From Acidobacteriota bacterium (GTDB lineage: Bacteria; Acidobacteriota; Thermoanaerobaculia; Multivoradales; JBCCEF01): a stretch of DNA of 64,000 nt. This document shows positions 173-20,800 of this stretch, one piece after another. The first letter of the stretch is position 1; each line of letters starts with the position of its first letter. Where the stretch lies: assembly GCA_039028635.1 (NCBI GenBank), contig JBCCHV010000018.1, positions 1 through 64,000 on the forward strand, read 5' to 3'. The translations under genes were made by a program, and so were the position numbers. Below the pieces are notes generated by a model. The model searched no databases, was not told the DNA's origin, and saw nothing but the letters and a program-made list of their open reading frames with translations.

Positions 173-2515
173 CTAGAACGGGAAGAACAGCGGGATCATC
201 GCCGTCATGACGGCGAGCAGGACGATGGTCAGCGGCGTCCCCACCTTGAGGTAGTCCATCGAGCGATAGCCGCCGGCACCCATCACCAGCAGGTTGGCTT
301 TGTGGCTGAAGGGCGTCATGAAGGCGGCCGAGGCGGCCAGGCTGGCTCCCATCATGAAGGGGTAGGGGCTGACCCCCATGCCCTCGGCGGTTTGCAGCAC
401 CACCGGCGTCAGCAGCACCACCGCCGGGGCGCCGTCGAGGCCCTGGCTGAGTATGCTCGACAGCACCACCAGGGCACCGAGGACGGCGTAAGGGCCCCAG
501 GGGCCGGCGAGCTCGCCGACCTGATCGGCGATCAGCTGGGCGGCGCCGGTGCGCTCCATGGCGACCCCCACCGGCAGCACCGCAGCGACCAGGAAGATGG
601 CGCGCCATTCGATCGCCCGGTAGGCCTCTTCCATGGTGACGGCGCCGAGCAGAACCACCACCGTGGCGGCGGTGAAGGCGGCGACGTGAATCGGCTGGAA
701 ACCGGCCATCACCATGGCGACCATCAGCAGCAGTCCGCCGAGGGCGAAGGGCGCCTTGCGGGTGCGGCGCGGCACTTCGTGGCGCGCCGAGAGGACAACG
801 AAGTCGGACTCCGCCGCGAGCTGACCGATCTTCTCCCGCGGGCCCTGCAGCAGCAGGGCGTCACCGACCTCGAGGGCGAGGCGCGCCAGGCGATGATGCA
901 CCGGCTCGCCGCGGCGCCACAGGGCCAGCACCTGAAGGCCATAGCGGTCGCGGAAGCGCAAATCGCCGAGGGACTGACCGATGGCCGCCGAGCGCGGCGC
1001 CACGGAGGCTTCGACGACGGCCACCTCGTCGGACTCGAAAACCGCCGGTTCGGCCGAGCCGACGCCCTCTTCGAGCTCGACATCGCCGAGCTCGACCAGG
1101 CTGACGATGCGCGATGGCTTGCCGGTGAGGAGCAGCCGATCGCCCGCGCGCAGAACCTCGTCCGGAGAAACGATGAGCAGGATCTCCTCGCCGCGAATGA
1201 TGCCGGCGACGGCCGGTCCCGAGAGCTCGCCGAGGCGGCTGCCGGCGAGGGTCATGCCGGCGAGGGCCGAGCCCTCCGGAATGGCGATCTGGAAGAGCTC
1301 GTCACGCATCGGCGAGAGCGCCTTGAAACCGAGGGCGAGGACTTCGAGATCGCGGCTCTCGGACAGCGCTTCGAGGTCGCGGCGGTGGCCGAGGGCGAGG
1401 AGGTGGTCGCCGGCTGCGAGAACTTCCGAGCCGACCTGGCGCAGGAGTAGCTCGTCACCACGCTCGATGGCCAGTACGACGAGGCCGCAGCGCTTGCGGA
1501 AATCGAGCTCACGGAGCGTCTTGCCGACGAAGCTCGAGCCCGCCGACAGGGCCAGTTGGGCGCCGCCGATGCCGCCGCGAGGCAGCGGGATGTCGGCCGT
1601 CGTCGCTTTGCTCACGCGCAGGTTCTTGAGCCGCAGCATCTCTTCCAGGTCGGCGATGCGGCCCTGGATGAAGAGTGAATCGCCGCCGCGCAGCAGGGTG
1701 TCGGCGGCGGGCGCCGGCCGACGCTTGCCGCGCCGTTCGATGGCCACCACCTGAGTGCCCAGGGCGGTGCCGAGCTTGGCTTCGCCGAGGGTCAGGCCGT
1801 TGAGCGGCGAGCTTTCGGGGATGCGGAGGGTGAAGAGCTCTTGGTCGAGCTGGTAGACCTGGGCCAGGTCGCCGGCCTCCGAGAGGGCCGGGCCATGGGT
1901 CTCGCGAGTCGGCAGGAGCCGCCGGCCGAGGGTGGTCATGAAGAGCACGCCGATTGCCAGAATGGCGAGGCCGATGGGGGTGAAGTCGAAGAGCTCGAAG
2001 GGCTCGAGGCCGCGCTCGCGCAGCATTTCCGCGGCCAGGATGTTGGGCGGCGTGCCCACCAGGGTGGTGGTGCCGCCGAGAATGGCACCGAAGGCCAGGG
2101 GCATGAACAGCCGCGACGGCGGGATCTTGGCTTGCCGCGCCAGGGCGGCCACCGCCGGCATCAAGACGGCGGTGGCGGCGATGTTGTTCATGAAGGCCGA
2201 GAGCACGCCGGCGATCAGCATCAAGGTGATGATCAGGGGCACTTCGCGGTTGCCGACCCAGCGGTGCAGGCGCGAGCCCACCATGTCGGCGAGACCGGTG
2301 TGGAGGAGGGCGGCGCTGACGATGAAGATCGACAGCATGGTGATCACCGCCGAGGAGGCGAAGCCGGTGAAGGCCTCGTCGGCAGTGAGGTAGCCGGTGA
2401 GGGTGAGGATCACCAGGCCGGCGAAGGCGGTCAGGTCGACGGGCAGCTTCTCGGTGAGAAACAGGTAGACCATGCCGGCCAGCAGGGCTAGCAGGAAACC
2501 GATCTCGATGGTCAT
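173..2515 (-). CDS. SLC13-family permease with central RCK_C (TrkA-C) domains
   Basis: Predicted inner-membrane transporter of about 780 aa in the SLC13/DASS (divalent anion:Na+ symporter) superfamily. The N-terminal membrane half carries NNIAATAVLMP and VGTPPN, typical of the first re-entrant region. The C-terminal half ends in a MTPFSHKANLLVMGAGGY segment, matching the second. Between them lie four repeats of about 70-80 residues ending in GD-LLL(T/Q/A)G, the pattern of RCK_C ligand-binding domains, as in the large bacterial members of this family. The second Asn-rich transport motif is degenerate (LSQGLDGAPAVV). The start is placed at the internal ATG (MTIEIGF) rather than seven codons upstream, because GGGAGGGAG lies four bases before it. 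The ATP-grasp gene is 129 bp upstream on the same strand. The substrate (sulfate, dicarboxylate or another anion) cannot be deduced. Probably not part of the biosynthetic cluster. Confidence 0.88.
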   Translation of the reverse strand: MTIEIGFLLALLAGMVYLFLTEKLPVDLTAFAGLVILTLTGYLTADEAFTGFASSAVITMLSIFIVSAALLHTGLADMVGSRLHRWVGNREVPLIITLMLIAGVLSAFMNNIAATAVLMPAVAALARQAKIPPSRLFMPLAFGAILGGTTTLVGTPPNILAAEMLRERGLEPFELFDFTPIGLAILAIGVLFMTTLGRRLLPTRETHGPALSEAGDLAQVYQLDQELFTLRIPESSPLNGLTLGEAKLGTALGTQVVAIERRGKRRPAPAADTLLRGGDSLFIQGRIADLEEMLRLKNLRVSKATTADIPLPRGGIGGAQLALSAGSSFVGKTLRELDFRKRCGLVVLAIERGDELLLRQVGSEVLAAGDHLLALGHRRDLEALSESRDLEVLALGFKALSPMRDELFQIAIPEGSALAGMTLAGSRLGELSGPAVAGIIRGEEILLIVSPDEVLRAGDRLLLTGKPSRIVSLVELGDVELEEGVGSAEPAVFESDEVAVVEASVAPRSAAIGQSLGDLRFRDRYGLQVLALWRRGEPVHHRLARLALEVGDALLLQGPREKIGQLAAESDFVVLSARHEVPRRTRKAPFALGGLLLMVAMVMAGFQPIHVAAFTAATVVVLLGAVTMEEAYRAIEWRAIFLVAAVLPVGVAMERTGAAQLIADQVGELAGPWGPYAVLGALVVLSSILSQGLDGAPAVVLLTPVVLQTAEGMGVSPYPFMMGASLAASAAFMTPFSHKANLLVMGAGGYRSMDYLKVGTPLTIVLLAVMTAMIPLFFPF

Positions 2516-2644
2516 CGCGCTCCCTCCCAGGGGCACCTCTGGCCGGCCGGAGGCCCGCTTCGGCGATTCAGCGAGGAGCCGACCCTTCTCTCAGGCACAG
2601 CTCTTCCAGGCGCAGCAGAAGAGCGCAGTCCCGAAGGCCAGTCC

Positions 2645-3868
2645 TTAATGGGCGTGGACCCTCACCTTGCGACCGACGATGTCGAAGATGCGGCGCAGCT
2701 CGTCGTAGTCCGGGTGGCGCATGCGCACCCAGGCGTTCGCCATGTAGCCCGCCTCCACCGGCTGGGTCGGGCTGCCCGGCGGCGGCAGGTGGGCGTCGAT
2801 CACCCACTGGCCGAAGGCGTTCTGCATTTCGTCGATGCCCTCGTAGCCGGCGATGCGGCCGTCGCCGCTCGGGCGCAGGGCGATCATGCCGGCGGAGAAG
2901 CGGCGCGACGCATCCTCTCCGCGGCGCCCATGAACCAGAGTCATGGCCCATTCACGATAGACGTCGATGTCGTTGGCAGCGGAGTAGACGTCCCACACGC
3001 CGACCCCCGGTGGCCGGCAGCCGATCTCCGAGAATTTCAGGCCCTTGGGGCCGAAGAACCACTCCATGTGGGTGGCGGAGGTGCCGATGCCGAGGATCTC
3101 GATGACCTTGCGGCCGAGGTGACGGACCTCTTGGTAGCTCTCCGCCTCGAGGCGGTTGGTGGTCACCAGGTAGGGATTGACCTCGCGGCTGCGCATGGCG
3201 TCGAGGACCCGCGGGTAGTAGTGGGAGATGAACTCGTGAAGCGGCTCGCCGCGCACCGAAAGGGTGTCCCAGAAGCCCTCGTGGCCCTCGATGAACTCCT
3301 CGATGGCGACGGAGCCGCCGTGGGCCAGGCGGTGCTCGGCAATCGCCCGCTCGAGGCCGCGGTCGTCGTCGACCCTTATGGTGCCGGCGGCGCCGGCGCC
3401 GCTGCGCGGCTTGAAGATCAGCGGATAACCGACGCGCTCGGCGAAGGCGCGGGCCTCCGGCGGCGATTCGGCGCCGGTCGACTGAGCGCAGGGAATGCCG
3501 CCCTGGCGCAGCGCTTCCTTCATCGCCGGCTTGTCGCGGCACAGCCAGGCGGTGCGCACCGAGGTGCCGGGAATGCCGCAGGCCTCGCGCACCTTGGCGA
3601 CGGGCAGGATGTGGGCCTCGACGGTGGCCTCCAGCAGGTCGACCCAGGGGCCGCGCTTCTGGATCCGCCGCACCGCCTCGAGCATCGCCCCTTCATCGAC
3701 CACCGAGCGCACTTCTTCGTAGCCGTCGAGCCACGACTTGAGGTCGTCGCTGAGGTAGGCGAGGGGGCGCTCGCCGATGCCGGTGACGCGGGCCCCGACC
3801 TCCTTGAGGGCCTTCACATGCTTTTTCTGGTTGTAGGGAAAGCTTGGTTCAACGAACAGAACGTGCAC
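2645..3868 (-). CDS. ATP-grasp domain protein (carboxylate-amine ligase-like)
   Basis: A 407 aa cytoplasmic protein with an ATP-grasp fold. The N-terminal pre-grasp region begins MHVLFVEPSFPYNQKKH. The central lid carries IFKPRSGAGAAGTI, a glycine-rich ATP-binding loop. IEEFIEGHEGFWDTLSV and the C-terminal HMEWFF...FSEIGCRPPG supply the acidic metal-binding positions typical of the family. Members ligate a carboxylate to an amine or thiol through an acyl-phosphate; the substrate here is unknown. Translation starts at GTG 3868, with GAGGAGGGG a few bases upstream. It lies upstream of the SLC13 gene and the two may be co-transcribed. It is separated from the NRPS cluster by the glycogen genes, so a role in tailoring is possible but unsupported. 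Confidence 0.8.
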   Translation of the reverse strand: MHVLFVEPSFPYNQKKHVKALKEVGARVTGIGERPLAYLSDDLKSWLDGYEEVRSVVDEGAMLEAVRRIQKRGPWVDLLEATVEAHILPVAKVREACGIPGTSVRTAWLCRDKPAMKEALRQGGIPCAQSTGAESPPEARAFAERVGYPLIFKPRSGAGAAGTIRVDDDRGLERAIAEHRLAHGGSVAIEEFIEGHEGFWDTLSVRGEPLHEFISHYYPRVLDAMRSREVNPYLVTTNRLEAESYQEVRHLGRKVIEILGIGTSATHMEWFFGPKGLKFSEIGCRPPGVGVWDVYSAANDIDVYREWAMTLVHGRRGEDASRRFSAGMIALRPSGDGRIAGYEGIDEMQNAFGQWVIDAHLPPPGSPTQPVEAGYMANAWVRMRHPDYDELRRIFDIVGRKVRVHAH

Positions 3869-5575: not shown

Positions 5576-6841
5576 CTAGACGGTCGTCCCGGGGGCGATG
5601 GTGGCGCCGCGGTGGACCACGATGACGCCGTCGCGAATCGAGTAGCCGTCGCCGTCGGCGTGGTCCACGCCGGCCTCGTTGATCAGCCGGCAGTCGTCGC
5701 CGATGCGGCTGTCGAGATCGACGATGGCGCCGCGGATGTGGCAGTCGCGACCGATGCCGAGGGGCACCGTCGCCTCCTTGCGATGCTCGTAGGCGGTGGC
5801 TCCCATCACCACGCTACTTTCGATCACAGAGCCGGCCCGGATCAGCGAACGGATGCCGATGATCGAGCGCGCCACCCGGCTGCCGGCGATGATGCCGCCG
5901 TCGGCGAGGATCGACTGGCTGACCTGGCAGTCGCTCAGCTTGCAGCCGGGAAGAAAACGCGGGTGGGTGTAGATCGGTCGGTCCGGGCTGTAGAGGTTGA
6001 GCTCCGGCATCGGCAGGGTGAGCTCGACGTTGGCTTCGTGGAAGCTGCCGATGGTGCCGATGTCGCGCCAGTAGCCGTTGTGGAGAAAGCCGAAGCCGCG
6101 GTGGCTGTCGAGGGCCGCGGGGATGACCTCGCGGCCGAAGTCGTCGTCCTGATTGCCGTCGAGGAGCTCGGCCAGGGCTGCGCTGCGGAAGATGTAGATG
6201 CCCATGCTGGCGAGCAGCATGCCGGGCTCGGCGTCGAGACCCAGGCTGTCGACGGTGGCCCGGTCGAGGGTGAAGCGAGCGATGGTCTCGGGGTCCTGCG
6301 GCTTCTCGACGAACTCGACGATGCGGCCGCTGCGGTCGAGGCGCATCACGCCAAGGCCGTGGGCCTCCTCGGCGGTCACCGGCTTGACGGCGACGGAGAA
6401 GTCGGCGTCGCGCTCGCGGTGGCTGGTGACGAAGCCGGCGACGTCCATCAGATAGAGCTGGTCGCCGGACAGAATCAGAATGTCCTGCGGCCGCGGCTTG
6501 CCGCTCTGCAGCCGGCGCATGTTCTGGCGCACGGCGTCGGCGGTGCCTTGGTACCAATCCCGGTTGTCGAGGCTCTGCTCGGCCGCCAGGATGTGCACGA
6601 AGCCCTGGCTGAAGGCGTCGAAGCGGTAGGTCTGGGCGATGTGGCGGTGCAGGCTGGCGGTGTTGAACTGGGTCATCACATAGACCCGATCGATGCCGGC
6701 GTGCAGACTGTTGCTGATCGGAATGTCGATCAGCCGGAACTTGCCCCCGATGGGGACCGCCGGCTTGGCGCGGTCGCGGGTCAGCGGCCAGAGACGGGTG
6801 CCCTGCCCACCGCCCAGGATCGCGGTGACGACCCCTTTCAT
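5576..6841 (-). CDS. glgC: Glucose-1-phosphate adenylyltransferase (ADP-glucose pyrophosphorylase)
   Basis: Makes ADP-glucose from ATP and glucose-1-phosphate, the committed step of bacterial glycogen synthesis. The 421 aa protein starts MKGVVTAILGGGQGTRLWPL, the nucleotide-binding signature, followed by RAKPAVPIGGKFRLIDIPIS and, further on, DWYQGTADAVRQN. The C-terminal third is a left-handed beta-helix of hexapeptide repeats (GIGRDCHIRGAIVDLDSRIG and similar), normal for GlgC. The start at 6841 was chosen over an upstream in-frame ATG at 6943 because homology begins here and GGGAG lies five bases before it; the extra 34 residues are low-complexity. glgA follows after 9 bp. Confidence 0.95.
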   Translation of the reverse strand: MKGVVTAILGGGQGTRLWPLTRDRAKPAVPIGGKFRLIDIPISNSLHAGIDRVYVMTQFNTASLHRHIAQTYRFDAFSQGFVHILAAEQSLDNRDWYQGTADAVRQNMRRLQSGKPRPQDILILSGDQLYLMDVAGFVTSHRERDADFSVAVKPVTAEEAHGLGVMRLDRSGRIVEFVEKPQDPETIARFTLDRATVDSLGLDAEPGMLLASMGIYIFRSAALAELLDGNQDDDFGREVIPAALDSHRGFGFLHNGYWRDIGTIGSFHEANVELTLPMPELNLYSPDRPIYTHPRFLPGCKLSDCQVSQSILADGGIIAGSRVARSIIGIRSLIRAGSVIESSVVMGATAYEHRKEATVPLGIGRDCHIRGAIVDLDSRIGDDCRLINEAGVDHADGDGYSIRDGVIVVHRGATIAPGTTV

Positions 6842-6907
6842 TGTGCTCCCATAGGGGAGCGATCCTACCGGGAACGCAGCCCCGGTGCTACCGCGATTGT
6901 CGTTTTC

Positions 6908-7023
6908 AGGGGGGCTAAAGGCGCCCCCCTCAGGCGCACGCACATGTCGTGCGCCTTCACCCCCTTCCTCGGCGGCTTGCGCCGCCGCCTCGGGCTTTCG
7001 CCCTCGGAGCCCGTGTGTGGGCT
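6908..7023. repeat. Second intergenic hairpin array
   Basis: Within the 226 bp gap between glgC and the small gene at 7068, five inverted repeats follow one another. They are an 8 bp stem AGGGGGGC/GCCCCCCT (6908-6930), a perfect 9 bp stem AGGCGCACG/CGTGCGCCT with a 7 nt loop (6932-6956), a 7 bp CGGCGGC/GCCGCCG stem (6970-6987), a 4 bp GGGC/GCCC (6992-7003), and AGCCC/GGGCT (7008-7023). The design resembles the array at the left edge. It may terminate minus-strand transcription from the small gene before glgC and marks the left border of the biosynthetic cluster. Confidence 0.55.
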
Positions 7024-7564: not shown

Positions 7565-9247
7565 ATGAAGTTCCTGCGCTTCGTGGCTGGCCAGTCCGGC
7601 CGAGCTCGCTGGATTTTGGCGGCGGCGGCGGCGATCGGTATCTTCAGCGGAGTCTTGAGTGTCGGCTTGGTCGCTCTGATCAACGCCGCCCTCAATGCCG
7701 AAGGCCCCAAGATGGCGGCCATCGGCTGGACCTTCGCCGCCCTCTGCGCTCTCATCACCCTCACCCGCGTGACATCCGTCGTGCTGCTCGCCAACCTCGG
7801 CCAGGGGGTGGTGCGCGAGCTGCGAGTCGATCTCAGCCGGCAGATCTCGGCGGCCCCCCTGCGGCGCATCGAGGAGCTCGGTCCGAATCGCCTTCTCGCC
7901 ACCCTGACGGACGACATCAACGCCATCTCCCAGGCGCTGATCTTCGTGCCTCCGATCTGCCTCAACGGCTCGATCATCGCCGGCTGCCTGATCTATCTCG
8001 GCTTCCTGGATCAGGGATTGCTCGGCATGTTGCTGGTGGCGATGCTGATCGGCATCGTCACCTACTTCGTGCCGGCGCAGCTCGGCATGCGCAAGTTCCA
8101 CGCCGCTCGCGAGCAGCAGGACCATCTCTTCGGCTACTTCGAGGGTTTGATTCGCGGCGGCAAGGAGCTGCGCCTGCACCGGCCGAGGCGGCGGGTTTTC
8201 GGTCGCTTGCTCGCCGGCGTCGCCGATCTCGCCCGCAAGCTGCGGGTCAAGGCGGCCTTGATCTACTCCGCCGCGGAGGCCTGGGGACGGCTGCTGATCT
8301 TCGTGGTCATCGGGGTGCTGCTCTTCGCCCGGCCGGATTTTCTGGGCGCCGACCGCGCCGTGCTCACCGGCTTCACTCTGGTGCTGCTGTTCCTGATGGG
8401 GCCGCTGCAGGCGCTCCTCGACTCGATTCCGGCCCTCGGCATGGCCGAAGTGTCGGCGCAGAAGGTCGCCAGCCTGGGCTTCAGCCTCGATGGCGCGGCC
8501 GGCGGAGCGCCGCGCCCGCCGGCGGTGCCGGCGCGCTCGTGGCAGCGCATCGAGTTTCGCGGCGTCACCCACACCTATCACCGTGAAGGTCAGGATCATC
8601 CCTTCGAGCTCGGCCCCATCGACCTCACCCTCGAACCCGGCGAGCTGGTGTTTCTAGTGGGTGGCAACGGCAGCGGCAAGACCACCTTGGCGAAGGTCTT
8701 CGTCGGCCTTTACGCTCCCGAGCGCGGCGAGATCCTGCTCGATGGCCAGCCGGTGACGGAGACTGATCGGGATGACTTCCGGCAGCTCTTTTCGGTGGTC
8801 TTCTCGGACTTCTATCTCTTCGATCGCCTGCTCGGCCTCGAGGCGCCGGATCTCGATCAGCAAGCCGGCCGCTATCTGCGCGAGCTGCAGATCGACCACA
8901 AGGTGGAGATTCGCGACGGCCAGCTCTCGGCGACGGATCTCTCCCAAGGGCAGCGCAAGCGCCTGGCGCTGCTGACGGCCTATCTCGAAGATCGCCAGAT
9001 CTATGTCTTCGACGAGTGGGCCGCCGACCAGGACCCGGTCTTCAAAGAGGTCTTCTACCGCCGGGTGCTTCCGGACCTCAAGGCGCGCGGCAAGACCGTG
9101 CTGGCGATTTCGCACGACGATCGCTACTTCCACCTGGCCGATCGCCTCGTCAAGCTCGAGGACGGCCGCCTGCGGTTCAGCGGTACCAGTCACGAGTTGC
9201 CCGAATCGCAGCCGCAGCCGGCGCTGGGTTCGAGTCTGTCCCGGTAG
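7565..9247 (+). CDS. Cyclic-peptide/siderophore type ABC exporter (PvdE/SyrD-like half-transporter)
   Basis: A 560 aa half-transporter: an N-terminal membrane domain with about six helices (residues 1-300) fused to a C-terminal ATPase. Walker A is GGNGSGKTT (about 366-374), the ABC signature is LSQGQRKRLAL (about 458), Walker B is IYVFDEWAADQDP (about 479) and the H-loop is AISHDDRY (about 515). The EWAADQDP sequence after Walker B and the overall layout are typical of the cyclic-peptide transporter family that includes PvdE and SyrD. It presumably works as a homodimer in the inner membrane, moving the lipopeptide or its precursor to the periplasm. It stands alone 195 bp before the N-hydroxylase, so it may have its own transcript. 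Its presence supports a secreted NRPS product. Confidence 0.9.
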   Translation: MKFLRFVAGQSGRARWILAAAAAIGIFSGVLSVGLVALINAALNAEGPKMAAIGWTFAALCALITLTRVTSVVLLANLGQGVVRELRVDLSRQISAAPLRRIEELGPNRLLATLTDDINAISQALIFVPPICLNGSIIAGCLIYLGFLDQGLLGMLLVAMLIGIVTYFVPAQLGMRKFHAAREQQDHLFGYFEGLIRGGKELRLHRPRRRVFGRLLAGVADLARKLRVKAALIYSAAEAWGRLLIFVVIGVLLFARPDFLGADRAVLTGFTLVLLFLMGPLQALLDSIPALGMAEVSAQKVASLGFSLDGAAGGAPRPPAVPARSWQRIEFRGVTHTYHREGQDHPFELGPIDLTLEPGELVFLVGGNGSGKTTLAKVFVGLYAPERGEILLDGQPVTETDRDDFRQLFSVVFSDFYLFDRLLGLEAPDLDQQAGRYLRELQIDHKVEIRDGQLSATDLSQGQRKRLALLTAYLEDRQIYVFDEWAADQDPVFKEVFYRRVLPDLKARGKTVLAISHDDRYFHLADRLVKLEDGRLRFSGTSHELPESQPQPALGSSLSR

Positions 9248-9442: not shown

Positions 9443-10810
9443 ATGCGAATAGCGTCATCCCATCCCTTCGATCAGCGCAATCCCGTCGACCTCCTGGGCA
9501 TCGGCTTCGGCCCATCCAATCTCGCCCTGGCGGCGGCGGTCCAAGAAGAGCTCGTCGAAAGGCGCGGTGAGCGTCTCTCGACTCTGTTCCTGGAGAGCAA
9601 ACCGGGCTTTGCCTGGCATCCCGGCATGTTGATGGAGGATGCCCGGATCCAGCTCTCCTTCCTCAAGGACATTTCCACGCTGCGCGATCCCGGCAGCCGT
9701 TACACCTTCCTCAGATACCTGCAGGAGAAGGGGCGCCTCGATCAGTTCATCAACCTGCGCAACTTCTTCCCGACGCGCATCGAGTTCTGCGATTACTACG
9801 CCTGGGTGGCGCAGCAGCTCGACGACCAGGTGCAGTACGGCGTCCGGGTCGAGGGCGTCGAGCCGGTGACCTCGGCGGATGGTGAGCGGGTCGAGCTGTT
9901 GCGGGTGAGCGCCCGCGACGAGGCCAGCGGTGAGCTTCACCAGGTGCTGGCGAAGAACCTGGTGGTCGCCACCGGTGGCATTCCCTTCCTGCCGCCGGGG
10001 GTCGATCTCGAGGGCAGCGAGCGGGTCTTCCACTCGAAAGACTTTTTGACCGCCATGACCGGCAAGTTCCTCGATCGGCAGGCACCGCACCGCTTCGCGG
10101 TGGTGGGGTCCGGGCAGACCGCGGCGGAGGTCTTTCAATACCTCTACACCCACTATCCCAATGCCGAAGTCACGGCCACCGTCCGGCGCTTCGCCTACAA
10201 GCCGGCGGACGACAGCCACTTCGTCAACGAGATCTTCTTTCCGGAGATGGTGGACAAGCTCTACGAGATGTCGCCACGGCAGCGCGACACGGTGCTGTCG
10301 GCGCACATGGACACCAATTACTCGGCCGTCGACCTCGACCTGATCCAGGAGATCTACGAGGCTTTGTACCAGCGTCGGGTCGAAGGCGACGAGCGGGTCA
10401 AGATTCGTCCCTTCCTGGAGTTGCGCGGTATCGCCGACGGTCGCGACAGCGCCACCCTGCGGTTCTTCAATCTGGTGGACGAGGCCTTCGAGTTCCTCGA
10501 GGTCGATGGCGCCGTGCTCGCCACCGGCTATCACCGGCCGCGCAACCACCGCCTGCTCGAGGCCCTTGGCGACCATCTCGAGCGCGATGCCGGCGGCCAC
10601 TACCTGGTGGACCGCAACTACCGCGTGATGGCCAGCGACGACTTCACGCCGGGAATCTTCCTGCAGGGATTCTGTGAGGACACCCACGGCCTGAGCGACA
10701 CCCTGCTGTCCACCCTGCCGGCGCGCTCGATGGAGATCCTCGACTCGCTGCGTGGCGTGCCCCGGCCGCGGTCTCTGACCCGGCCCGAGGCCGAGGCGGC
10801 GGGATCATGA
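9443..10810 (+). CDS. L-ornithine/L-lysine N-monooxygenase (PvdA/IucD/Spb38-like)
   Basis: A 455 aa FAD- and NADPH-dependent enzyme that hydroxylates the side-chain amine of ornithine or lysine. The FAD motif GIGFGPSN is at residues 19-26. The NADPH motif VVGSGQTAAEV is at about 219-229. ATGYHRP (about 360) and the C-terminal GLSDTLLSTLPARS are hallmarks of this family. Sequence alone does not settle ornithine versus lysine. Its stop overlaps the start of the cupin-MetRS gene (ATGA), implying coupled translation and a shared pathway. In siderophore clusters the hydroxylamine is acylated to a hydroxamate, but no N-acyl or formyl transferase is visible here. With a cupin-MetRS partner, N-N bond formation is the better explanation. 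Confidence 0.92.
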   Translation: MRIASSHPFDQRNPVDLLGIGFGPSNLALAAAVQEELVERRGERLSTLFLESKPGFAWHPGMLMEDARIQLSFLKDISTLRDPGSRYTFLRYLQEKGRLDQFINLRNFFPTRIEFCDYYAWVAQQLDDQVQYGVRVEGVEPVTSADGERVELLRVSARDEASGELHQVLAKNLVVATGGIPFLPPGVDLEGSERVFHSKDFLTAMTGKFLDRQAPHRFAVVGSGQTAAEVFQYLYTHYPNAEVTATVRRFAYKPADDSHFVNEIFFPEMVDKLYEMSPRQRDTVLSAHMDTNYSAVDLDLIQEIYEALYQRRVEGDERVKIRPFLELRGIADGRDSATLRFFNLVDEAFEFLEVDGAVLATGYHRPRNHRLLEALGDHLERDAGGHYLVDRNYRVMASDDFTPGIFLQGFCEDTHGLSDTLLSTLPARSMEILDSLRGVPRPRSLTRPEAEAAGS

Positions 10811-12831
10811 GGAAGGCGCCACTGCACATCCAGGGGGTCGATCCGGAGAAGTTCTACCGCGCCTACGGCATTCAGTGCCAGCAAGTCTACCCCTGGGAAG
10901 GGGTCAGCGAGACGCCCTTCTTCACCGCCTGGGGGGTGGTGCCGCCGGGCGGCACGGCGCGGGCCCACAAGCACCAGGAGCACGAGAGCTTCGTGATCGT
11001 CCAGGGGCGTGGCCGGATGAGGGTCGACGATCAGAGCCGCGAGGTCGGTCCCGGCGACGTCATCCTGATGGAGCCCTTCGCCGAGCACGAGCTGACCAAT
11101 CTCTCGCAGAGCGACGAGCTGCTCTTTCTCGATCTCTGCTGGGAGGACATGGAGCAGGCGGTGCGCCGCAACCGCGCGGCGCTGGCCAGCGATGAGCAGG
11201 CTGCACGGGTGCTGGTGACAGCGACCCCGCCGACGCCCAACGGCGACCTCCACGTCGGTCACCTCTCGGGGCCCTATCTCGGCGCCGACATCTTCACTCG
11301 CTATTGCCGGCAGCGCGGTCGCGAGGCGGCCTATCTCAGCGGTGCCGACGATCATCAGAGCTACACCGAGACCAAGGGGGCGGTCCTCGGCCAGACGCCG
11401 CGTCAGGTGGCGGACCGTTTCGGCGATGCGATCGTCGAAACCCTGCGCCAGGCCGACATCGAGATCAGCCATTTCGCCCGGCCCCTGACCTCGACCCATC
11501 ACCGCGCCCTCACCGCCGAGGTCTTCGCTCGCCTGGTCGACCGCGGCGCGATCGTCAAGCGGCAAGCGCCGACGCTCTACTGCGTGCCCTGCGAGCGCTT
11601 CCTGTTCGAGGCCCACGTGGTCGGCTCCTGCCCCCATTGCGGTGCCTCCTCGAACGGCAATGCCTGCGAGGCCTGCGGTCGCCCCAACGACAGCGCCGAG
11701 CTCCACGATCCCTCCTGCAAGCGCTGTGGCGGGGAGCCCGAGCTGCGCCCACAGGAGCGCTTCTTTTTCCCCCTGGCGCCTTTCGCCGAGCGCCTCGAGC
11801 GCTACTGGGACGGAGTGCAGATGGGAGCCCATCTGCGCTCCCTGTGCGACGTCATGCTCTCCGACGGCCTACCGGACATCGCCGTCAGCCAGCAAAGTGA
11901 CTGGGGGATCCCGGTGCCGGTCGAGGGTTTCGAGGACCAGGCGATCTACGTCTGGTTCGAGATGGCGCCGGGCTACCTGGCGGCGACACGCGAGCTCGGT
12001 GAGCAGGCGGAGGATGCCTTTTGGCGCTCCGCAGAGGCCGAGGTCGTGCAGTTCTTCGGCTTCGACAACGGTTACTTCCACGCCGTGCTGTTCCCCGCCA
12101 TCTTCATGGCCTTCGACGACAGCCTGCGGTTGCCGACGACCTTCGTGACCAACGAGTTCTATCGCTACGAGGGCGAAAAGTTCTCCACCAGCCGCAACCA
12201 TGCCATGTGGGCGCGGGAGCTGCTGGCGGAGGTACCCGTCGACGTGGCGCGCTACTGCCTGGCCTTCGACGGTCCCGAGCGCGAGCAGAGCAACTTCACC
12301 CTCGCCGGCCTGCGCGAAACGGCGCGGCGCGAGCTGATGGACGGCTGGGAGCGCTGGCTGCGCTCGCTAGGTCGCAAGCTCGCTCAGGTCGAAGGTGTGG
12401 TGCCCAGCACCGGCGGCTGGACCGCCGAGCAGCAGAGCTTTTTCCAGTCCCTGATCGATCTCTCGGCGGACGCCGCCGAGGCCTACGAGGCGGCATCTTT
12501 CTCGCCCCAGCGGGCGGCGCGGGTGCTCTCCGAGGTGGTGCGCGAGGCGCATCGCTTCGGCAGTGGTCAGGAGCACTGGCGGGCCCTCCCGGGGCGCTAC
12601 GAAGAGTGGCGCACGGCCCTCGCCCTCGAAGTACTGGCGGCCAAGACGTTGGCCCTGCTGGCCGCTCCGCTGATGCCGCGCTTCAGCGCCCGCCTGCTCT
12701 CGGCCTTGGGCCGTGAAGGCAGTCCGGTGTGGGACGAGATCCCGCGATTCCTGCCCGGCGGCAGCTCCGTCGGAAGCCTCGACGTCGCCTGGTTCTCGCC
12801 GGTCGCGACGCCGCGGTTCGCCGCCGTTTGA
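10807..12831 (+). CDS. Cupin-methionyl-tRNA-synthetase-like didomain protein, putative hydrazine (N-N bond) synthetase
   Basis: A 674 aa fusion. Residues about 40-112 are a cupin: HKHQEHE places metal ligands at H54, H56 and E60, with H94 in PFAEHELTN. Residues about 134-674 are a class I synthetase related to MetRS. The HIGH motif is HVGH (149-152), two zinc knuckles follow (CPHCG...CEACG and CKRCGG), and the KMSKS loop is KFSTS (458-462), with a helical C-terminal domain. A housekeeping MetRS has no cupin. This architecture next to an N-hydroxylase matches Spb40 of the s56-p1 pathway and its triacsin-pathway relative, which join N6-hydroxylysine to glycine to form a hydrazine. By analogy the synthetase domain would activate an amino acid as aminoacyl-AMP, acylate the hydroxylamine oxygen, and the cupin would rearrange it to N-N. 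The precise substrates here are inference. Confidence 0.85.
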   Translation: MRKAPLHIQGVDPEKFYRAYGIQCQQVYPWEGVSETPFFTAWGVVPPGGTARAHKHQEHESFVIVQGRGRMRVDDQSREVGPGDVILMEPFAEHELTNLSQSDELLFLDLCWEDMEQAVRRNRAALASDEQAARVLVTATPPTPNGDLHVGHLSGPYLGADIFTRYCRQRGREAAYLSGADDHQSYTETKGAVLGQTPRQVADRFGDAIVETLRQADIEISHFARPLTSTHHRALTAEVFARLVDRGAIVKRQAPTLYCVPCERFLFEAHVVGSCPHCGASSNGNACEACGRPNDSAELHDPSCKRCGGEPELRPQERFFFPLAPFAERLERYWDGVQMGAHLRSLCDVMLSDGLPDIAVSQQSDWGIPVPVEGFEDQAIYVWFEMAPGYLAATRELGEQAEDAFWRSAEAEVVQFFGFDNGYFHAVLFPAIFMAFDDSLRLPTTFVTNEFYRYEGEKFSTSRNHAMWARELLAEVPVDVARYCLAFDGPEREQSNFTLAGLRETARRELMDGWERWLRSLGRKLAQVEGVVPSTGGWTAEQQSFFQSLIDLSADAAEAYEAASFSPQRAARVLSEVVREAHRFGSGQEHWRALPGRYEEWRTALALEVLAAKTLALLAAPLMPRFSARLLSALGREGSPVWDEIPRFLPGGSSVGSLDVAWFSPVATPRFAAV

Positions 12832-12861: not shown

Positions 12862-14860
12862 ATGGTGGCTGAATTCATGCGTTGGTCCAGCCTGGTGGAT
12901 TTGCTGACGGAGCGTGCCCGGGAGCTTCCCGAGCAGCGCGCCTACACCTTCCTCGACGACGCCGGAGAGGCCGAGGCGACGCTCACCTTCGGTGATCTCG
13001 ATCGCCGGGCGCGGGCGATCGCGTCGGCCCTCCAGGCCGCCGGCCTCGGCGGCCAGCGGGCGATGCTGCTCTACGCCCCGGGGATCGAGTTCGTCGCCGC
13101 CTTCTTCGGCTGCCTGTATGCCGGCGTGGTGGCGGTGCCGGGCTACCCGCCGCGCTCGCGGCGCAGCCTGCCGCGCCTGATGACGGTGGCGCAGGACGCG
13201 CGCGCCGCCGTCGCCCTGACCACCGCCGGCTTGAAGGCCAAGTTCACCGCCCTGGCCGGCGACCTGCCGGACCTGGCGGCGATCCACTGGCTGGCCACCG
13301 ACGAGGTCCCGCTGGCGGCGGCGGAGAGCTGGCGCCAACCGAGCGTCGAGGCCTCGACCCTGGCCTTCCTGCAGTACACCTCGGGCTCGACCTCGGCTCC
13401 CAAGGGAGTGATGGTCTCGCACGGCAATCTGCTCCACAACGAGGAGCTCATTCGCCGTGCCTTCGATCAATCCCGGGAGTCGGTGATCTGCGGTTGGCTG
13501 CCGCTCTACCACGACATGGGGTTGATCGGGAACGTGCTGCAGCCTCTGTACGTCGGTGCGCCCTGCTACCTGCTGTCGCCCTTCGCCTTCCTGCAGCGGC
13601 CGCGCCTGTGGCTCGAGGTGATCGGTCGCTACGGCGCCACCACCAGCGGTGGACCGAACTTCGCTTACGACCTGTGCGTGCGCAAGATTCCGCCGGCGGA
13701 GCGCGCCGGCCTCGACCTGACGAGCTGGCGGGTGGCCTTCAACGGCGCCGAGCCGGTGCGCGCCGGAACCCTCGAGCGCTTCGCGACGGCCTTCGCCGAC
13801 TGCGGCTTCGATCGCCGTGCCTTCCTACCTTGCTACGGCCTGGCCGAGGGCACCCTCTTCGTCACCGGCGAGCCGGTGGCCGAGGCGCCGCGGGTGCGGC
13901 CCTTCGAGGCCGAGGCCCTCGAGCAAGGCCAGGCGATCGAAGCGCCCGGCGGGCGAGACCTGGTGGCTTCCGGGGTGGTCGCCGGCGACCAGCGCATCGC
14001 GATCGTCGATCCCGCCACGGGGCAACCGCGGGCGGCGGGAGAGGTGGGGGAGATCTGGCTCGCAGGACCCAGCGTCACCGGTGGCTACTGGCGCCGTCCC
14101 GAGGCCACCGCCGAGTGCTTCGGAGCGCGCCTGGCGGGTGAGCCGGAGGCCTCCTACCTGCGCACCGGCGACCTCGGCTTCAGCGATGGCGAGCGATTGT
14201 TCGTCACCGGTCGCCTCAAGGACCTGATCATTCTGCGCGGGCGCAACCATTACCCCCAGGACATCGAGCTGACGGTCGAGGGCAGCCACCGGGCGCTGCG
14301 GCCGGGCTGCGGTGCCGCCGTAGCTCACACCGTCGAAGGCGAGGAGCGCTTGGTGGTGCTGCAGGAGGTCGAGCGCAGCGCCCGTCAGGTCGAGCCGGCG
14401 GAGGTCTTCGCGGCGGTCCGCCGCGCCGTTGTCGAGGTGCATCAGGTGGAGCCGGCGCTCGTCGTCCTGCTCAAGGCGGGCTCGATTCCCAAGACCTCGA
14501 GCGGCAAGGTGCAGCGGCGCCTGAGTCGGCGCCGTTGGTTGAAGGGCGAGGTCGAGGTGCTGGCCTCCTGGCCGGCCGCCGCCGGCGCCGAAGAGCCGGC
14601 GCCGCGGGCCGCGCGCCGCCGGGCGGTGATCGCCGGCCTGACGACCCTCGCGGCGCGCCTGCTGAAGGTCGCCGAGGAGGAGATCCGGCCCGACACGCCG
14701 CTGCCCCTCGACTCTCTCGCCGCCCTCGAGCTGCGCGGCGAGGTGGAGGCTTCCCTGGGGGTCGCTTTGCCCCTCGAAGAGCTCTTCGAGAGTCCCTCCC
14801 TGGAGCGTCTCGCGGAGTTGATCGCGGCGACTCCGGCGAAGGAGCCCGCGGCGGTCGAGG
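12862..14860 (+). other. Loading module: fatty acyl-AMP ligase (FAAL) and ACP
   Basis: The FAAL core shows YTSGSTSAPKGVMVSH (from about 13373), YHDMGLIGNVLQPLY and SGGPNFAYDLCVRKI. The last two are characteristic of FAALs rather than acyl-CoA ligases. SSGKVQRRLSR near 14497 supplies the C-terminal Lys region. The ACP follows with PLDSLAALEL; the phosphopantetheine serine codon is 14713-14715. The expected role is ATP-dependent activation of a free fatty acid as acyl-AMP and transfer to the ACP, making the product N-acylated. Chain length cannot be predicted by eye. Confidence 0.92.
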
Positions 14861-17800
14861 AGCCCGCTGTCCAGGACAAGATCGCTGGCGAGCCGGCGCC
14901 GGCCTGGCCCGAGGAGATGGATCTCTCCCTCGGGCAACGCGCCCTGTGGTTTCTCGAAAAGGTCGACCCCGGCCGCGATGCCTACCACATCGCTTTCGCC
15001 GGAGAGGTGGCGGCCGGGGTCTCCCGCGATGCCCTCGCGGACGCTTGGCAGCGCCTGACGCAGCGCCATCGGCTGCTGCGGGCGGGGGTGGTGGAGGTCG
15101 AGGGGGAGCCGCGGCTGCGGGTGGCGGCGGCTCCCGGCGAGCTCGAGACCGCTTCCTTCGCCGGCGACGGCCGCGACCTCGACGGCGAGCTGCAGCGTCA
15201 GGCGAGGCGACCTTTCGATCTCGCCAGCGGCGATCGCCTGGCGCGCTGTCGCTGGATCGACCGGCCCGGTGAACCGCCGATTTTGCTTTTCGTCTTCCAC
15301 CATCTGGTGGCGGACCTCGGCTCCTTGGCGATCGTCGCTGCTGAGCTGGCGCGGCTCCTCGCCGAGCCCGCGGCAGAGCTCGCGCCCTTGACCGGCGATT
15401 ACTCCGAGCTGGTCGCCGCCCAGCAGCCCGATCCCGAGCTCGGCCGCTTCTGGCATGACGAGCTCGATCCGCTGCCGGCGGCTCTCGAGCTGCCCCTCGA
15501 CCGGTCGCGACCACCGGTGCAGCGCTTCACCGCTGGAGTCGAGCGCTTTCGCGTCCCCGGCGACGAGCTGGCGGCCTGGTGCCGCCGCCAGGGGGTGACT
15601 CCCTTTGTCGCTCTGCTGGCCGCCTACCAGGCATTCCTCGGCCGCCTCTCGGGGCAGCGGGTTTTCTGCGTCGGGGCGCCGGCGGCGGGTCGGGATCGCG
15701 CCAGCCGTCGGCTGGTGGGGTACTACGTCAACCCTTTGACCCTACGCGCCGATCTCACCGGCGAGCCCTCCTTCGAACGCCTGGCGGCGGACCTCAAGGA
15801 GCGCGTCCGGCGGGCCGTCGAGCATCAGGCTTACCCCTTCCCGCGGCTGGTGGAGGAGCTCCATCCGGAGCGCGATGCCAGCCGCTCGCCGCTCTTTCAG
15901 GCCTTCTTCTCCTACGCCCGGGGTCGTACCGGCGGTGGCGATCTCGGGGCCTTCGCCCTCGGCGAGGCCGGGGCCACCCTCGAGCTCGGGCCGCTGCGCT
16001 TCGAGCGTCGCGCCCTCGATCCGCAGGCCGCGGCCTTCGATCTCAGCTTGGCGATGGCGACCCGCGGCAGTGAGCTGGTGGGCTCCTTCACCTATGCCCG
16101 CGAGCTCTTCGACCAGGCCACCGTCGAGCGCTGGACGGCGAGCTTCGGGCGCTTTCTGGGCGAGCTCGTGGCCCGTCCCAAGGAGCCCTTTGGCCGCCTG
16201 CCGCTGTTGTCGTCGGAGGAGCGCCGGCAGATCCTTGTCGATTGGAACGACACCCTGCGCGAGGACTCCGGTGAAACCTTCCTCGAGCTGTTCGCGGCGC
16301 GGGTGGCGGCGCATCCCGGCCAGGCGGCCGTCTCGAGCGGTGACGAGGTCTTGAGCTACGGCGACCTCGACCGCGCCAGTCAACGCCTCGCCGAGCGCTT
16401 GCGCGGGCGCGGCATCGGGCCCGGCGATCGGGTCGGAGTCGCCGTGGCGCGCAGTCCGCGTCTGCTCGTCGCCCTCCTCGGCGTGCTGCGGGCGGGCGCC
16501 GCCTATGTGCCCCTCGACCTCGCTTTTCCGGCCCAGCGCTTGAGCTACATGATCGAGGACGCCGGTCTGCGACTGGTGCTCAGCGAGGCGGCGCGGGCCG
16601 ACGATCTGCCGCCCCATCGCGTTCCGGTGCTCGACCTCGCCGAGGCGGCGTCCGGAGATCCCGTCGCCGACGCTCCGCGGCCGCGGCCGCTGGCCGGGGA
16701 AGACACCGCCTACGTCATCTACACCTCGGGCTCGACGGGGCGCCCCAAGGGGGTGGTGGTGCCGCACCGGGCGCTGCGCAACTTCCTGCTGGCGATGGCC
16801 GAGGAGCCGGGACTCGCGGCGGGTCAGTGCCTGCTGGCGGTGACCTCCCTGTCCTTCGACATCTCGGCCCTCGAGCTCTACCTGCCGTTGATCGTCGGTG
16901 GCCGCGTCGAGGTCGCCGGACGCGATGAGACCAGCGATGGCGAGGCCTTGGCGCGGCGCCTCGACACCTGCCGAGCCGATGCCATGCAGGCGACTCCGGC
17001 GACCTGGCGCATGTTGCTCGAAGCCGGTTGGCGGGGCCGCCCGCAGCTCGCGATGCTGTGCGGTGGCGAGGCTTTGCCCGGCGATCTCGCAGCCGAGCTC
17101 CTGCCCCGGGGCCGGGCGCTGTGGAATCTCTACGGCCCCACCGAAACCGCCGTCTGGTCGGCCTGTCAGCCGGTTTCTGGGGAGATCGCCGGCGAGGGTA
17201 GCGTGGCCCTCGGGCGGGCGATTCGCAACACCCGGCTGCTGGTGCTCGACGGTCACGGTGAGCCGTTGCCGATCGGCGTCGCCGGCGAGCTGTTGATCGG
17301 CGGGCGCGGGCTTGCCGACGGTTACCTGCAACGGCCGGCCCTCACCGCCGAGCGCTTCGTGCCCGATCCCCTCGCCGGCCAGCCCGGCGGCGGGGCGCCC
17401 GGGGCGCGCCTCTATCGCACCGGCGATCTGGTGCGCTGGCGGTCTGCTGGCGTTCTCGAGTTCCTCGGCCGCCTCGACCACCAGGTCAAAGTCCGGGGCC
17501 ACCGCATCGAGCTCGGCGAGGTCGAGAGCGTGCTCAGCGCGGTACCGGGAGTCACCCAGGCGGTGGCGGTGGCGCGTCGGGACGGCGGTGGGGAGGCCGA
17601 GCTGGTGGCCTATGTCACCGCCGAGGAGAGCTTCGACGTCGACCTTCTGCGCGGCCTGGCGCGGCGCTCCTTGCCCGAATACATGGTGCCGTCGAGGTTG
17701 GTGCGCCTGGAGTCCTTTCCGCTCACTCCCAACGGCAAGGTCGATCGCCGGGCGCTGCCGGCGCCGCAGGCGGCACGCCCCAAGGTCGCTCCTCAACTTC

Positions 17801-20800
17801 CCGCCGGCTCCCTGGAGGCGACCCTCTCCCAGATCTGGTGCGATCTGCTCGGCCTCGAGGCGGTCGGCCTCGAGGACTCCTTCTTCGATCTCGGTGGCCA
17901 CTCGCTGCTCCTCGGCAAGCTGCGCACGCGGCTGCGTCAGGAGCTCGATCGCGAGGTGGCGGTGGTCGACTTCTTCCGCTTTCCCACCATCACCTCCCTG
18001 GCCGATTTTCTGCGTGGGGATGGCGTGGGTGGCGGTTCGGCTTTGCGCCGGCGCCGTCGTATCGCTGGCAGTCTGGAAGGCGATTCCTCGGTGGCGATCG
18101 TCGGGCTGGCAGGGCGATTTCCGGGAGCCGCCGACGAGGCGGCCCTCTGGCAGCTCCTGACGGCCGGCCGCGAGGGTCTGCGAGATCTGACCGACGAGGA
18201 GCTTGTGGCGGCGGGGGTGTCGCCGGCGCAGGCCGGGGAGCCGGATTACGTGCGGCGCACCGGCGTACTCGCCGACTTTGACACCTTCGATGCCGCGGCC
18301 TTCGGCTTCACCGCCCGCGAAGCGGAGCTGCTCGATCCGCAGCATCGGGTGTTTCTGGAATGCGCCGTCGACGCCCTCGACAACGCCGGCCTCGATCCGC
18401 AGACCTATGGCGGCGCCATCGGCGTCTACGCCGGCGCCGGTCTCAACGGCTACCTGGTGCACCAGCTCGCCGCCGCTGCCGGTGCCGACACCGCCGCTGC
18501 TTACCAGGTGATGATCGGCAACGACAAGGACTTCCTGGCCACCCGCCTGTCCTACGAGCTCGATCTCTCGGGGCCCAGCTTGGCGGTGCAGACGGCCTGC
18601 TCGACCTCCCTGGTGGCGGTCCATCTGGCCTGTCGCAGCCTGCTCGCCGGCGAAGCCGACGCGGCCCTCGCCGGCGGCGTCTCGGTGGCGGTGCCGCACA
18701 CCGCCGGCTACCGCTACCAGAACGGCATGATCCTGTCACCGGATGGCCAGTGCCGGCCCTTCGCCGCCGAGGCCGCCGGTACCGTGCGCGCCAGCGGTGC
18801 CGGTGTGGTGGTGCTCAAGCGACTGGCCGACGCCGAGGCCGATGGCGATCGCATCCGGGCGGTGATTCTCGGCTCGGCGATCAACAACGACGGCCGGCGC
18901 AAGATTGGCTACACGGCGCCGAGCGTCGATCGTCAGGCGGAGGTCATCGCCGAGGCGCAGGCGATCGCCGGCGTGGCGGCCGAGACGGTGACCTATGTCG
19001 AGGCCCACGGTACCGGCACCGAGCTCGGCGACCCGATCGAGATCGCCGCCCTGTCGCAGGTCTTCGGGGACGCCCGGGAGGTCGCCCTCGGGTCCGTCAA
19101 GGGCAACCTCGGCCACCTCGATGCGGCGGCCGGCGTGAGCGGCCTGATCAAAACCGTCCTCGCCCTCGAGCATGGTGAGCTGCCGCCCAATCTGCACCGC
19201 GGCGAGGTCGCCGAGGCGGTGCGCGAATCGCCCTTCCGGCCGGTCGCGGAAAGCACTTCCTGGCAGCGCCCGGACGGTGGCCGGCGGCGCGCCGGCGTCA
19301 GCAGCTTCGGCATCGGGGGCACCAATGCCCACCTGGTGGTGGAGGAGGCGTCGGATCCATCGCTCGCGGCGCCAGCGGAGGCCGGCGAGGAAGCCTTGCC
19401 GACCGCCGCCCAGGCCGAGGACGACGCCGTGCCCCAACTGGTGGTGCTGTCGGCCCACGACGGCCAGGCTCTCGATGAGCTCGGTCGCGATCTCGCGGCC
19501 CATCTGCGCAGCGACGAGGCGCCGCCGCTGGCCGCCGTCGCCCACACCCTGCAGACGGGTCGACGGCGGCTGGCCCATCGCCGGGTGCTGGTGGCTGGCG
19601 ATGGCGCCGATGCCGCCTCCGCCCTCGATCCCCTCGACCCGGCGCGGGTGCTCGAGGCGCGCGGTGACGACGGCCGGGGCGAGAGCGGCCGTCGCGAGGT
19701 GGTGTTCCTGTTCCCCGGTCAGGGCGCCCAGCGTCCCGCCATGGGCAGCCAGCTCTATGGCGACGAGCCGGTCTTCCGGCAGGTCGTCGACCGCGCCTGT
19801 GACCACTACGGGACCGAGTTCGACCTGCGGGCGGTGCTCTTCGCCAGTGGCGAGGGCGGCGGCGAGGCGCTGCGCCAGACGCGCTGGACGCAGCCTGCTC
19901 TGTTCGTCTTCGAGACCGCCCTCGCCGAGCTCTGGAAGAGCTGGGGCATCTCGCCGGCGGCGATGCTCGGCCATTCGCTGGGGGAGTACGTCGCCGCCCA
20001 CCGCGCCGGTGTCTTCTCTTTCGAGGCCGGCCTCGATCTGGTGCGGCGCCGCGGCGAGCTGATCCAGGCCCTGCCGGAGGGCTCGATGGCGGCGGTTTCC
20101 GCCCCCGCCGAAACGGTGGCGCCGACCTTGCCGCCGAGCCTGACGGTGGCCGCGATCAACGACCAGGCGACCTGCGTCGTCGCGGGATCGGGTGAGGCGC
20201 TGGAAGGCTGGATCGCCGGTTCCGGCCTGCGCGCTCGGCCGCTGGTCACCTCCCATGCCTTCCACTCGCCGATGATGGCGCCGGTCGAGGAACCACTGAA
20301 GGAGCTTTTCGCCGCCCTGCCCCTGGAGGCGCCGAAGATTCCCTATGTCTCCAACCTGACGGGCACCAGGATCACCGCCGAGCAGGCCACCGATCCGGCC
20401 TACTGGGCGGCCCACCTGCGTCAGCCGGTGCGCTTCGCCGACGGCCTCCGGCAGCTCGCCGGCGATCCGCGCCGGGTGCTCCTCGAGGTCGGGCCGGGGG
20501 AAACCTCTTTGACCTTCGCGCGCCGCCTCGGGGAAGGGGGCACTGGCTTCGCGCCGTCGGCGCTGGTGCCGACGCTGCCGGTGCCGGCCCTGGCGAAGGA
20601 AGAGGCCGCCAGTTTGCGCCGCGCCCTCGGCCGCCTCTGGCTCGGCGGAGTCGACATCGACTGGGCCGGGCTCTGGTCCCAGGGGGCTCCCACCAAGGTC
20701 GCCCTGCCGGCCTATCCCTGGCAGCGTCAACGCTACTGGGTGGAGAAGACAGTGTCCGCGGTCACCATCGGCGGTGGGGCTGCGCCGGGCGAAGCGGCGG

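Follow-up and report, generated by a model that had tools for sequence, protein, structure and literature searches.

The cupin and methionyl-tRNA synthetase (MetRS)-like didomain proteins PyrN, Spb40 and Tri28 of the pyrazomycin, s56-p1 and triacsin pathways, respectively, are each paired with an N-hydroxylase and share H-H-E-H cupin ligands and the catalytic lysine known from PyrN as Lys458. In PyrN, the exchanges H52A and E56A within the cupin ligands (H50, H52, E56 and H90) and K458A in the MetRS-like domain abolish activity (PMC8664883), and in these pathways the proteins, here called hydrazine synthetases (HS), work alongside small-molecule enzymes (PMC11705231, PMC8664883). In the azaserine cluster (AzsN/AzsO) the N-hydroxylase, HS and nonribosomal peptide synthetase (NRPS) genes adjoin, and a single module loads Ser while a carrier domain within the HS bears the hydrazine unit (PMC10445470), which may be regarded as another way for an HS and an NRPS to cooperate. 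The piperazate peptides contain an N-hydroxylase-derived N-N amino acid (KtzI/KtzT) as an NRPS monomer (PMC11705231), so that such amino acids can be ordinary NRPS building blocks. The largest known NRPS as of a 2018 review is the giant single-chain kolossin synthetase with 15 modules (PMC6262359). Here we describe a 64,000-nucleotide stretch of DNA (the window), the first 64 kb of the 98,839-bp contig C18 of an Acidobacteriota genome, in which an N-hydroxylase gene and an HS gene stand directly before an NRPS line; a known enzyme family, previously one of small molecules, is here joined to a 21-module lipopeptide line. The main new finding is the co-occurrence of the HS with an adenylation (A) domain that has Arg at pocket position 322, and a genome designated G005 is its weak point.

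The source genome (G000; 6.28 Mb, 117 contigs, 95% complete) was compared with a second genome of the same genus (G001) and with further genomes of the same order, all given G numbers; of the 59 genomes of the order, 13 have an HS and 46 do not.

The hydrazine synthetase and its partner gene

The open reading frames, the ATGA overlap of the N-hydroxylase and HS genes (ATG at 10807, TGA at 10808-10810) and the 30-bp gap from the HS stop to the next ATG at 12862 on the same strand were found as an earlier note on this DNA had given them, and the Pfam matches (Lys_Orn_oxgnase in the first protein, Cupin_2 and tRNA-synt_1g in the second) bear out its naming of an N-hydroxylase and a cupin-MetRS didomain protein. 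The N-hydroxylase contains the motifs GIGFGPSNLAL, SFLKDIS, GSGQTAAE, DTNYS and LATGYH, and its best match in the Protein Data Bank (PDB), the Lys N6-monooxygenase MbtG (2.7e-104), does not discriminate between Lys and Orn or diaminobutyrate (Dab) as the substrate.

The catalytic residues of the HS are clearly conserved. The PyrN ligands H50/H52/E56/H90 are all kept as H54/H56/E60/H94, with the numbering shifted by 4, and K458 in the sequence K458FSTS bears the same number as the catalytic lysine of PyrN. All four ligands are retained in 22 of 25 HS-type cupins and the last three in all 25, and the cupin domain of the window HS matches RHS1 (5UQP, 1.4e-4). The nucleotide-binding loop reads KFST in every HS-type row (KFSTS in the window) and K(M/V/I)(S/A)KS in the housekeeping rows; the best PDB match of the HS, 9vq4, is named a methionine-tRNA ligase yet has the KFST signature. 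In a tree of the MetRS domain, 26 HS-type rows split from 7 housekeeping MetRSs with a support of 100/100. Two long branches are joined in this tree (L120 and G029 C54:508176), from which no inference was taken; the latter (G029:C54:508176-509531, L039; 587 aa) is MetRS-like and stands alone, ~28 kb from a complete HS, and its long branch lies close to the Deinococcus form. The earlier note had counted a place among the housekeeping enzymes, or the lack of any other MetRS in the genome, against its reading; neither objection applies, as the window HS falls in the HS clade and the housekeeping MetRS of G000 is found separately on contig C1. Judging by its ligands, its motifs, the tree and the separate housekeeping MetRS, the didomain protein is almost certainly an HS, and together with the N-hydroxylase it very probably joins two amino acids through an N-N bond. 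This would differ from piperazate formation, where a heme enzyme cyclises one amino acid, in that a relative of tRNA synthetases and a zinc cupin join two.

The earlier note had proposed glycine as the partner amino acid, which finds no support in the MetRS-like pocket. Its motifs in the window HS, TATPPTPNG, GADDHQSY, VWFEMAPGY and FGFDNGYFH, are unlike FSTPPTPNG, GSDDYQSY, VWPEMSYGF and FGYDNSFYH of the azaserine-type (Gly) enzymes encoded in the azaserine-like clusters of the plasmids S. lavendulae pSA3239 and S. meliloti pSmeSM11b, and therefore glycine should not be assumed. The HS of the azaserine cluster also belongs to another clade than the window HS.

Probable coupling to a giant assembly line

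The line has a FAAL-ACP start (fatty-acid-AMP ligase match 1.3e-151), condensation modules and a TE-like end with a GWSMGG motif, all the parts of a FAAL-initiated lipopeptide NRPS/polyketide synthase (PKS), and it totals 21 modules after the loading unit. The earlier note had rightly recognized a giant acyl-PKS-NRPS line but understated its size, since the third gene, which starts with GTG at 34559 in a GTGA overlap with the stop of megasynthase 2, spans ~50.6 kb and extends past the window. Its protein is among the largest single-chain NRPSs for which a reference was found, and it differs from kolossin synthetase in having 16 modules and in being preceded by FAAL/PKS proteins and the HS cassette. 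With pocket codes taken by alignment to the Ser domain, the A domain of megasynthase 1 presumably selects Gly and the first one of megasynthase 2 Ser, both by canonical codes; the codes of megasynthase 3 we take to stand for Ser, Gly, DGAFVAGVWK, DHESVGNVVK, Pro, a Phe/Tyr-like residue, DAFFLGCTFK and Pro in modules 1-8, and for Thr, DALFIGATIK, Gln, Pro, Val, DALFIGATIK, DALFIGATIK and Ala in modules 9-16.

The order HS, FAAL/KS/AT/KR, KS/AT/NRPS and giant NRPS is repeated in G001, with an HS that is 70% identical and a counterpart of megasynthase 3 that has 17 modules, and is thus not an effect of chance or assembly. Further HS genes adjoin NRPS lines in G020 (C552 and C491), G001 (C19), G008 (C116) and G044 (C45). 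The coupling of the HS to an unusually large line, as put forward in the earlier note, is supported by the shared operon and by the order conserved in G001 and appears likely; the N-N product probably enters this line.

The Arg322 pocket of module 5

The second A domain of megasynthase 2, that of module 5, has the code DVLIASRIAK, which is set apart by the unusual Arg322. A profile built from nine Arg322-type pocket regions was searched against the 59 genomes, and the link described here rests on genomes of this order. In 13/13 genomes with an HS and in 1/17 without, the A domain that matches best carries Arg322, the 17 being the HS-negative genomes that returned a locus in the search (Fisher 1.2e-7). 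Among genomes held out of the profile the counts are 8/8 and 0/16 (1.4e-6), and with NRPS-rich genomes only they are 13/13 and 1/7 (1.8e-4). Ser codes are found in G006, G021 and G033, which have no HS and ~70 or more A-domain matches each. The contrast is also seen within single genera, between G014 (HS, Arg322) and G006 and G028 (no HS, Ser code), and between G044 and G033. On five contigs (G000 C18, G001 C18, G001 C19, G020 C491 and G029 C54) the Arg322 domain and the HS lie 13-34 kb apart.

The pocket variant likewise tracks the HS clade. Clade 1 consists of the window HS, G001 C18 and G008 C116 (98/96), clade 2 of ten others including G000 C111 and G001 C19 (98/93), and clade 3 of G016, G023 and G029; the corresponding pockets are DVLI.[SG]RIAK, DV[LVA]S.GR[IV]SK and DV[LI].FARIGK. 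Position 278 is I in G000 and G001 C18 and S in the second-clade genomes, and the pockets of G016 and G023 are DVLSFARIGK and DVILFARIGK. Literature searches for Arg322 codes found nothing in the library searched, and the Arg322 domain is absent from the three named HS clusters with an NRPS that were examined, those of S. lavendulae, S. meliloti and Streptomyces NBC_01483.

The chances that the N-N product is loaded through module 5 are about even. A more specific model, in which the intact two-amino-acid hydrazine is the NRPS monomer and is chosen by a class of pockets as yet without a label, whose Arg322 pairs with the second carboxylate, with variants for each clade in the order, is rather doubtful. 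Should the Arg322 pocket load the HS product, genomes could be mined for N-N-containing peptides by a sequence code, and lipopeptides bearing a hydrazine would become accessible by an assembly-line route.

Oxidases and a second hydrazine synthetase locus

Azaserine-type clusters have an adjoining DAO-family oxidase; in the window no such gene is present, contig C18 has no dedicated oxidase, and, in contrast to the PyrN, Spb40 and Tri28 systems, neither an oxidase nor a saccharopine dehydrogenase adjoins the HS. The earlier note's statement that a Spb39-like oxidase is missing therefore holds for the window and contig and not for the genome. With the oxidase preceding the N-hydroxylase in G008 as the query, an orthologue was found in G000 at a contig end (C29:70910-72106). 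Across the order, 12/13 genomes with an HS have such an orthologue, scoring 365 bits or more (the next score being 122), as against 0/46 genomes without an HS (Fisher 1.2e-11). In G008 C116, which carries the closest HS outside the genus, the oxidase, N-hydroxylase, HS and the start of a condensation domain stand in a row. In view of these two oxidases, the earlier note's suggestion that the intact N-N amino acid may itself be a building block is no more than a possibility.

The C29 oxidase groups with the G001 C5 copy (100/100), where the gene order is EamA-type gene, N-hydroxylase, AdoMet-decarboxylase-like gene and oxidase, and is thus apparently part of the locus of the second HS in G000. 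That locus, in which an EamA gene and a second N-hydroxylase adjoin the HS, lies on C111, a contig of 5.6 kb. C29 and C111 may once have been one locus, with the oxidase serving the second HS first; their joining is a guess, because the AdoMet-decarboxylase-like gene expected between them sits on a third contig, C101. This gene (PF02675, below the NCBIfam cut-off) is present in exactly the ten clade-2 genomes and in no others of the 59, and may encode a decarboxylase that acts in a hydrazine pathway; examples, often beside the N-hydroxylase or HS, are G000:C101:7566-7976, L025:4449-4991 and L057:11021-11500. The HS clades and the confinement of this gene to clade 2 suggest that G000 probably has two hydrazine pathways. 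Contig C95 of G000 encodes an NRPS whose Arg322 domain has the code DVLSIGRVSK. The DNA of this NRPS resembles that of the NRPS next to the second HS of G001 (C19), and C111 and C95 are probably one split cluster.

Proposed pathway and alternative explanations

As a whole, the locus is best explained, with some reservation, as a gene cluster for a lipopeptide, which includes a cassette for hydrazine formation that feeds the assembly line. The N-hydroxylase would oxidise the side-chain amine of Lys, Orn or Dab, the MetRS-like domain would adenylate a second amino acid and esterify it to the hydroxylamine, and the zinc cupin would rearrange the ester to the hydrazine, in line with chemistry already established for enzymes of this family (PMC8664883, PMC11705231). 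What the sequence itself shows is the order of the genes, their domains and catalytic residues, the family to which the proteins belong, the pocket codes and the co-occurrence; that module 5 loads the monomer, and that the product is then assembled, released and exported, we infer. The FAAL would start a fatty-acyl chain, to which Gly, two polyketide units, an epimerised Ser and an epimerised monomer X would be added, X being derived from the hydrazine, either intact or trimmed by an oxidase encoded elsewhere, and picked by the module-5 pocket with its Arg322. The 16 modules of megasynthase 3 would then extend the chain, the TE would release it and the ABC transporter export it. That the hydrazine is loaded intact rather than cleaved appears, overall, rather unlikely.

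Several observations weigh against this pathway. G005 carries DVLIASRIAK and DVLVASRIAK in or beside FAAL lines, yet no HS, N-hydroxylase or oxidase orthologue was found in it; either the supply genes have been lost or the pocket accepts an amino acid whose supply does not depend on these genes. The code itself is a correlation by which the module-5 substrate is predicted, and the p-values given above overstate independence as the genomes are related. The HS of the G001 cluster has no adjoining N-hydroxylase, and the sole N-hydroxylase of that genome, on another contig, would need to work in trans. G007, G023 and G040 have no NRPS beside the HS on the contig, and the C29 oxidase could act on the product of the window HS.

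The didomain protein could alternatively be a spare or self-resistance MetRS, in keeping with its Pfam and NCBIfam matches to MetRS; however, its score lies under every NCBIfam MetRS cut-off, a zinc cupin is fused to it, KFSTS and EM replace KMSKS and A256 of MetRS, and its place outside the housekeeping clade, with the housekeeping gene elsewhere in the genome, leaves this reading extremely improbable. The N-hydroxylase family and the cyclic-peptide-type exporter would also suit a hydroxamate siderophore cluster, in which hydroxy-Orn or hydroxy-Lys is made for iron chelation, but the adjoining gene of the same operon is an HS with its full catalytic residues, and no acyl- or formyltransferase gene is found between the genes of the cassette. 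In addition, the metallophore rule of antiSMASH counts an Orn hydroxylase together with a MetRS-like protein as a non-siderophore signature (PMC12971057), and a siderophore is accordingly very unlikely.

That the cassette is dedicated to a small hydrazine metabolite of its own and is only a neighbour of the lipopeptide line would agree with the HS loci of G007, G023 and G040, but is difficult to reconcile with the 30-bp gap on one strand, with the HS-FAAL-line order that G001 has retained at 70% identity despite having no N-hydroxylase there, and with the co-occurrence of Arg322 and the HS, and seems improbable. A variant in which the C29 oxidase acts in trans and cuts the HS product to a small hydrazino acid that is then loaded, modelled on hydrazinoacetic acid (s56-p1, triacsin and azaserine) or an omega-hydrazino acid (Apy10), is a real possibility, though short of an even one. 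The distribution of the oxidase among HS genomes and its row with the N-hydroxylase and HS in G008 C116 favour it, and the oxidases of azaserine-type plasmids are also PF01266 proteins. On the other hand, the C29 oxidase is not close to these azaserine-type oxidases (no phmmer match at 1e-6), its contig-end position and grouping with the G001 C5 copy apparently assign it to the second HS locus, and neither the window nor C18 has a dedicated oxidase.

Features and distribution

The features of the window are listed in Table 1. The orthologue of the ABC exporter holds the same place in G001.

Table 1. Features of the hydrazine synthetase locus and of the region upstream of it.
Feature	Coordinates	Strand	Description
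N-hydroxylase, flavin-type, basic amino acid (Lys/Orn/Dab class)	9443-10810	+	455 aa; PF13434 (Lys_Orn_oxgnase) 9.5e-105
HS didomain protein	10807-12831	+	674 aa; Cupin_2 1.6e-13 and tRNA-synt_1g 5.1e-91 in a single protein
HS cupin domain	10807-11172	+	Cupin_2 1.6e-13; ligands H54, H56, E60, H94
HS MetRS-like domain	11191-12831	+	tRNA-synt_1g 5.1e-91; HVGH at aa 149, KFSTS at aa 458
Megasynthase 1	12862-22548	+	3228 aa; FAAL-ACP-C-A(presumably Gly, DILQLGLVWK)-T-KS-AT-KR-ACP
Megasynthase 2	22545-34562	+	4005 aa; KS-AT-ACP-C-A(presumably Ser, DVWHVSLVDK)-T-E-C-A(DVLIASRIAK)-T-E
Module-5 A domain, Arg at pocket position 322 (DVLIASRIAK)	31365-32825	+	Candidate loader of the hydrazine-derived monomer, from code and co-occurrence
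Megasynthase 3	34559-64000 in the window; whole gene 34559-85126 of C18	+	16,855 aa; 16 A-T modules and TE
ABC transporter, cyclic-peptide-export type	7565-9247	+	Likely product exporter; TIGR01194 4.2e-157, above cut-off
DASS/CitMHS transporter	176-2536	-	Upstream of the cluster, probably not part of it
ATP-grasp protein	2648-3868	-	Upstream of the cluster, probably not part of it
GlgC-like nucleotidyltransferase	5579-6943	-	Upstream of the cluster, probably not part of it

A search of 149 genomes from the remainder of the class found no HS, and in a sample of the phylum (396 genomes, cut 1e-80) the only matches outside the order are stand-alone proteins of ~550-790 aa whose alignment is confined to the MetRS-like part. 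One scan of genome contigs returned a single named relative, Micromonospora sp. KC606. In G023 and G016, HS proteins with two tandem cupins, both with H.H...E, before the MetRS-like domain are encoded at L037:5931-8390 and L040:650-3223, respectively. The plasmid pC5.7b of Rhizobium rhizogenes (L116, 5615-10025) carries N-hydroxylase, DAO oxidase and HS genes, with neighbouring PEP-mutase-like and Rieske genes on the opposite strand.

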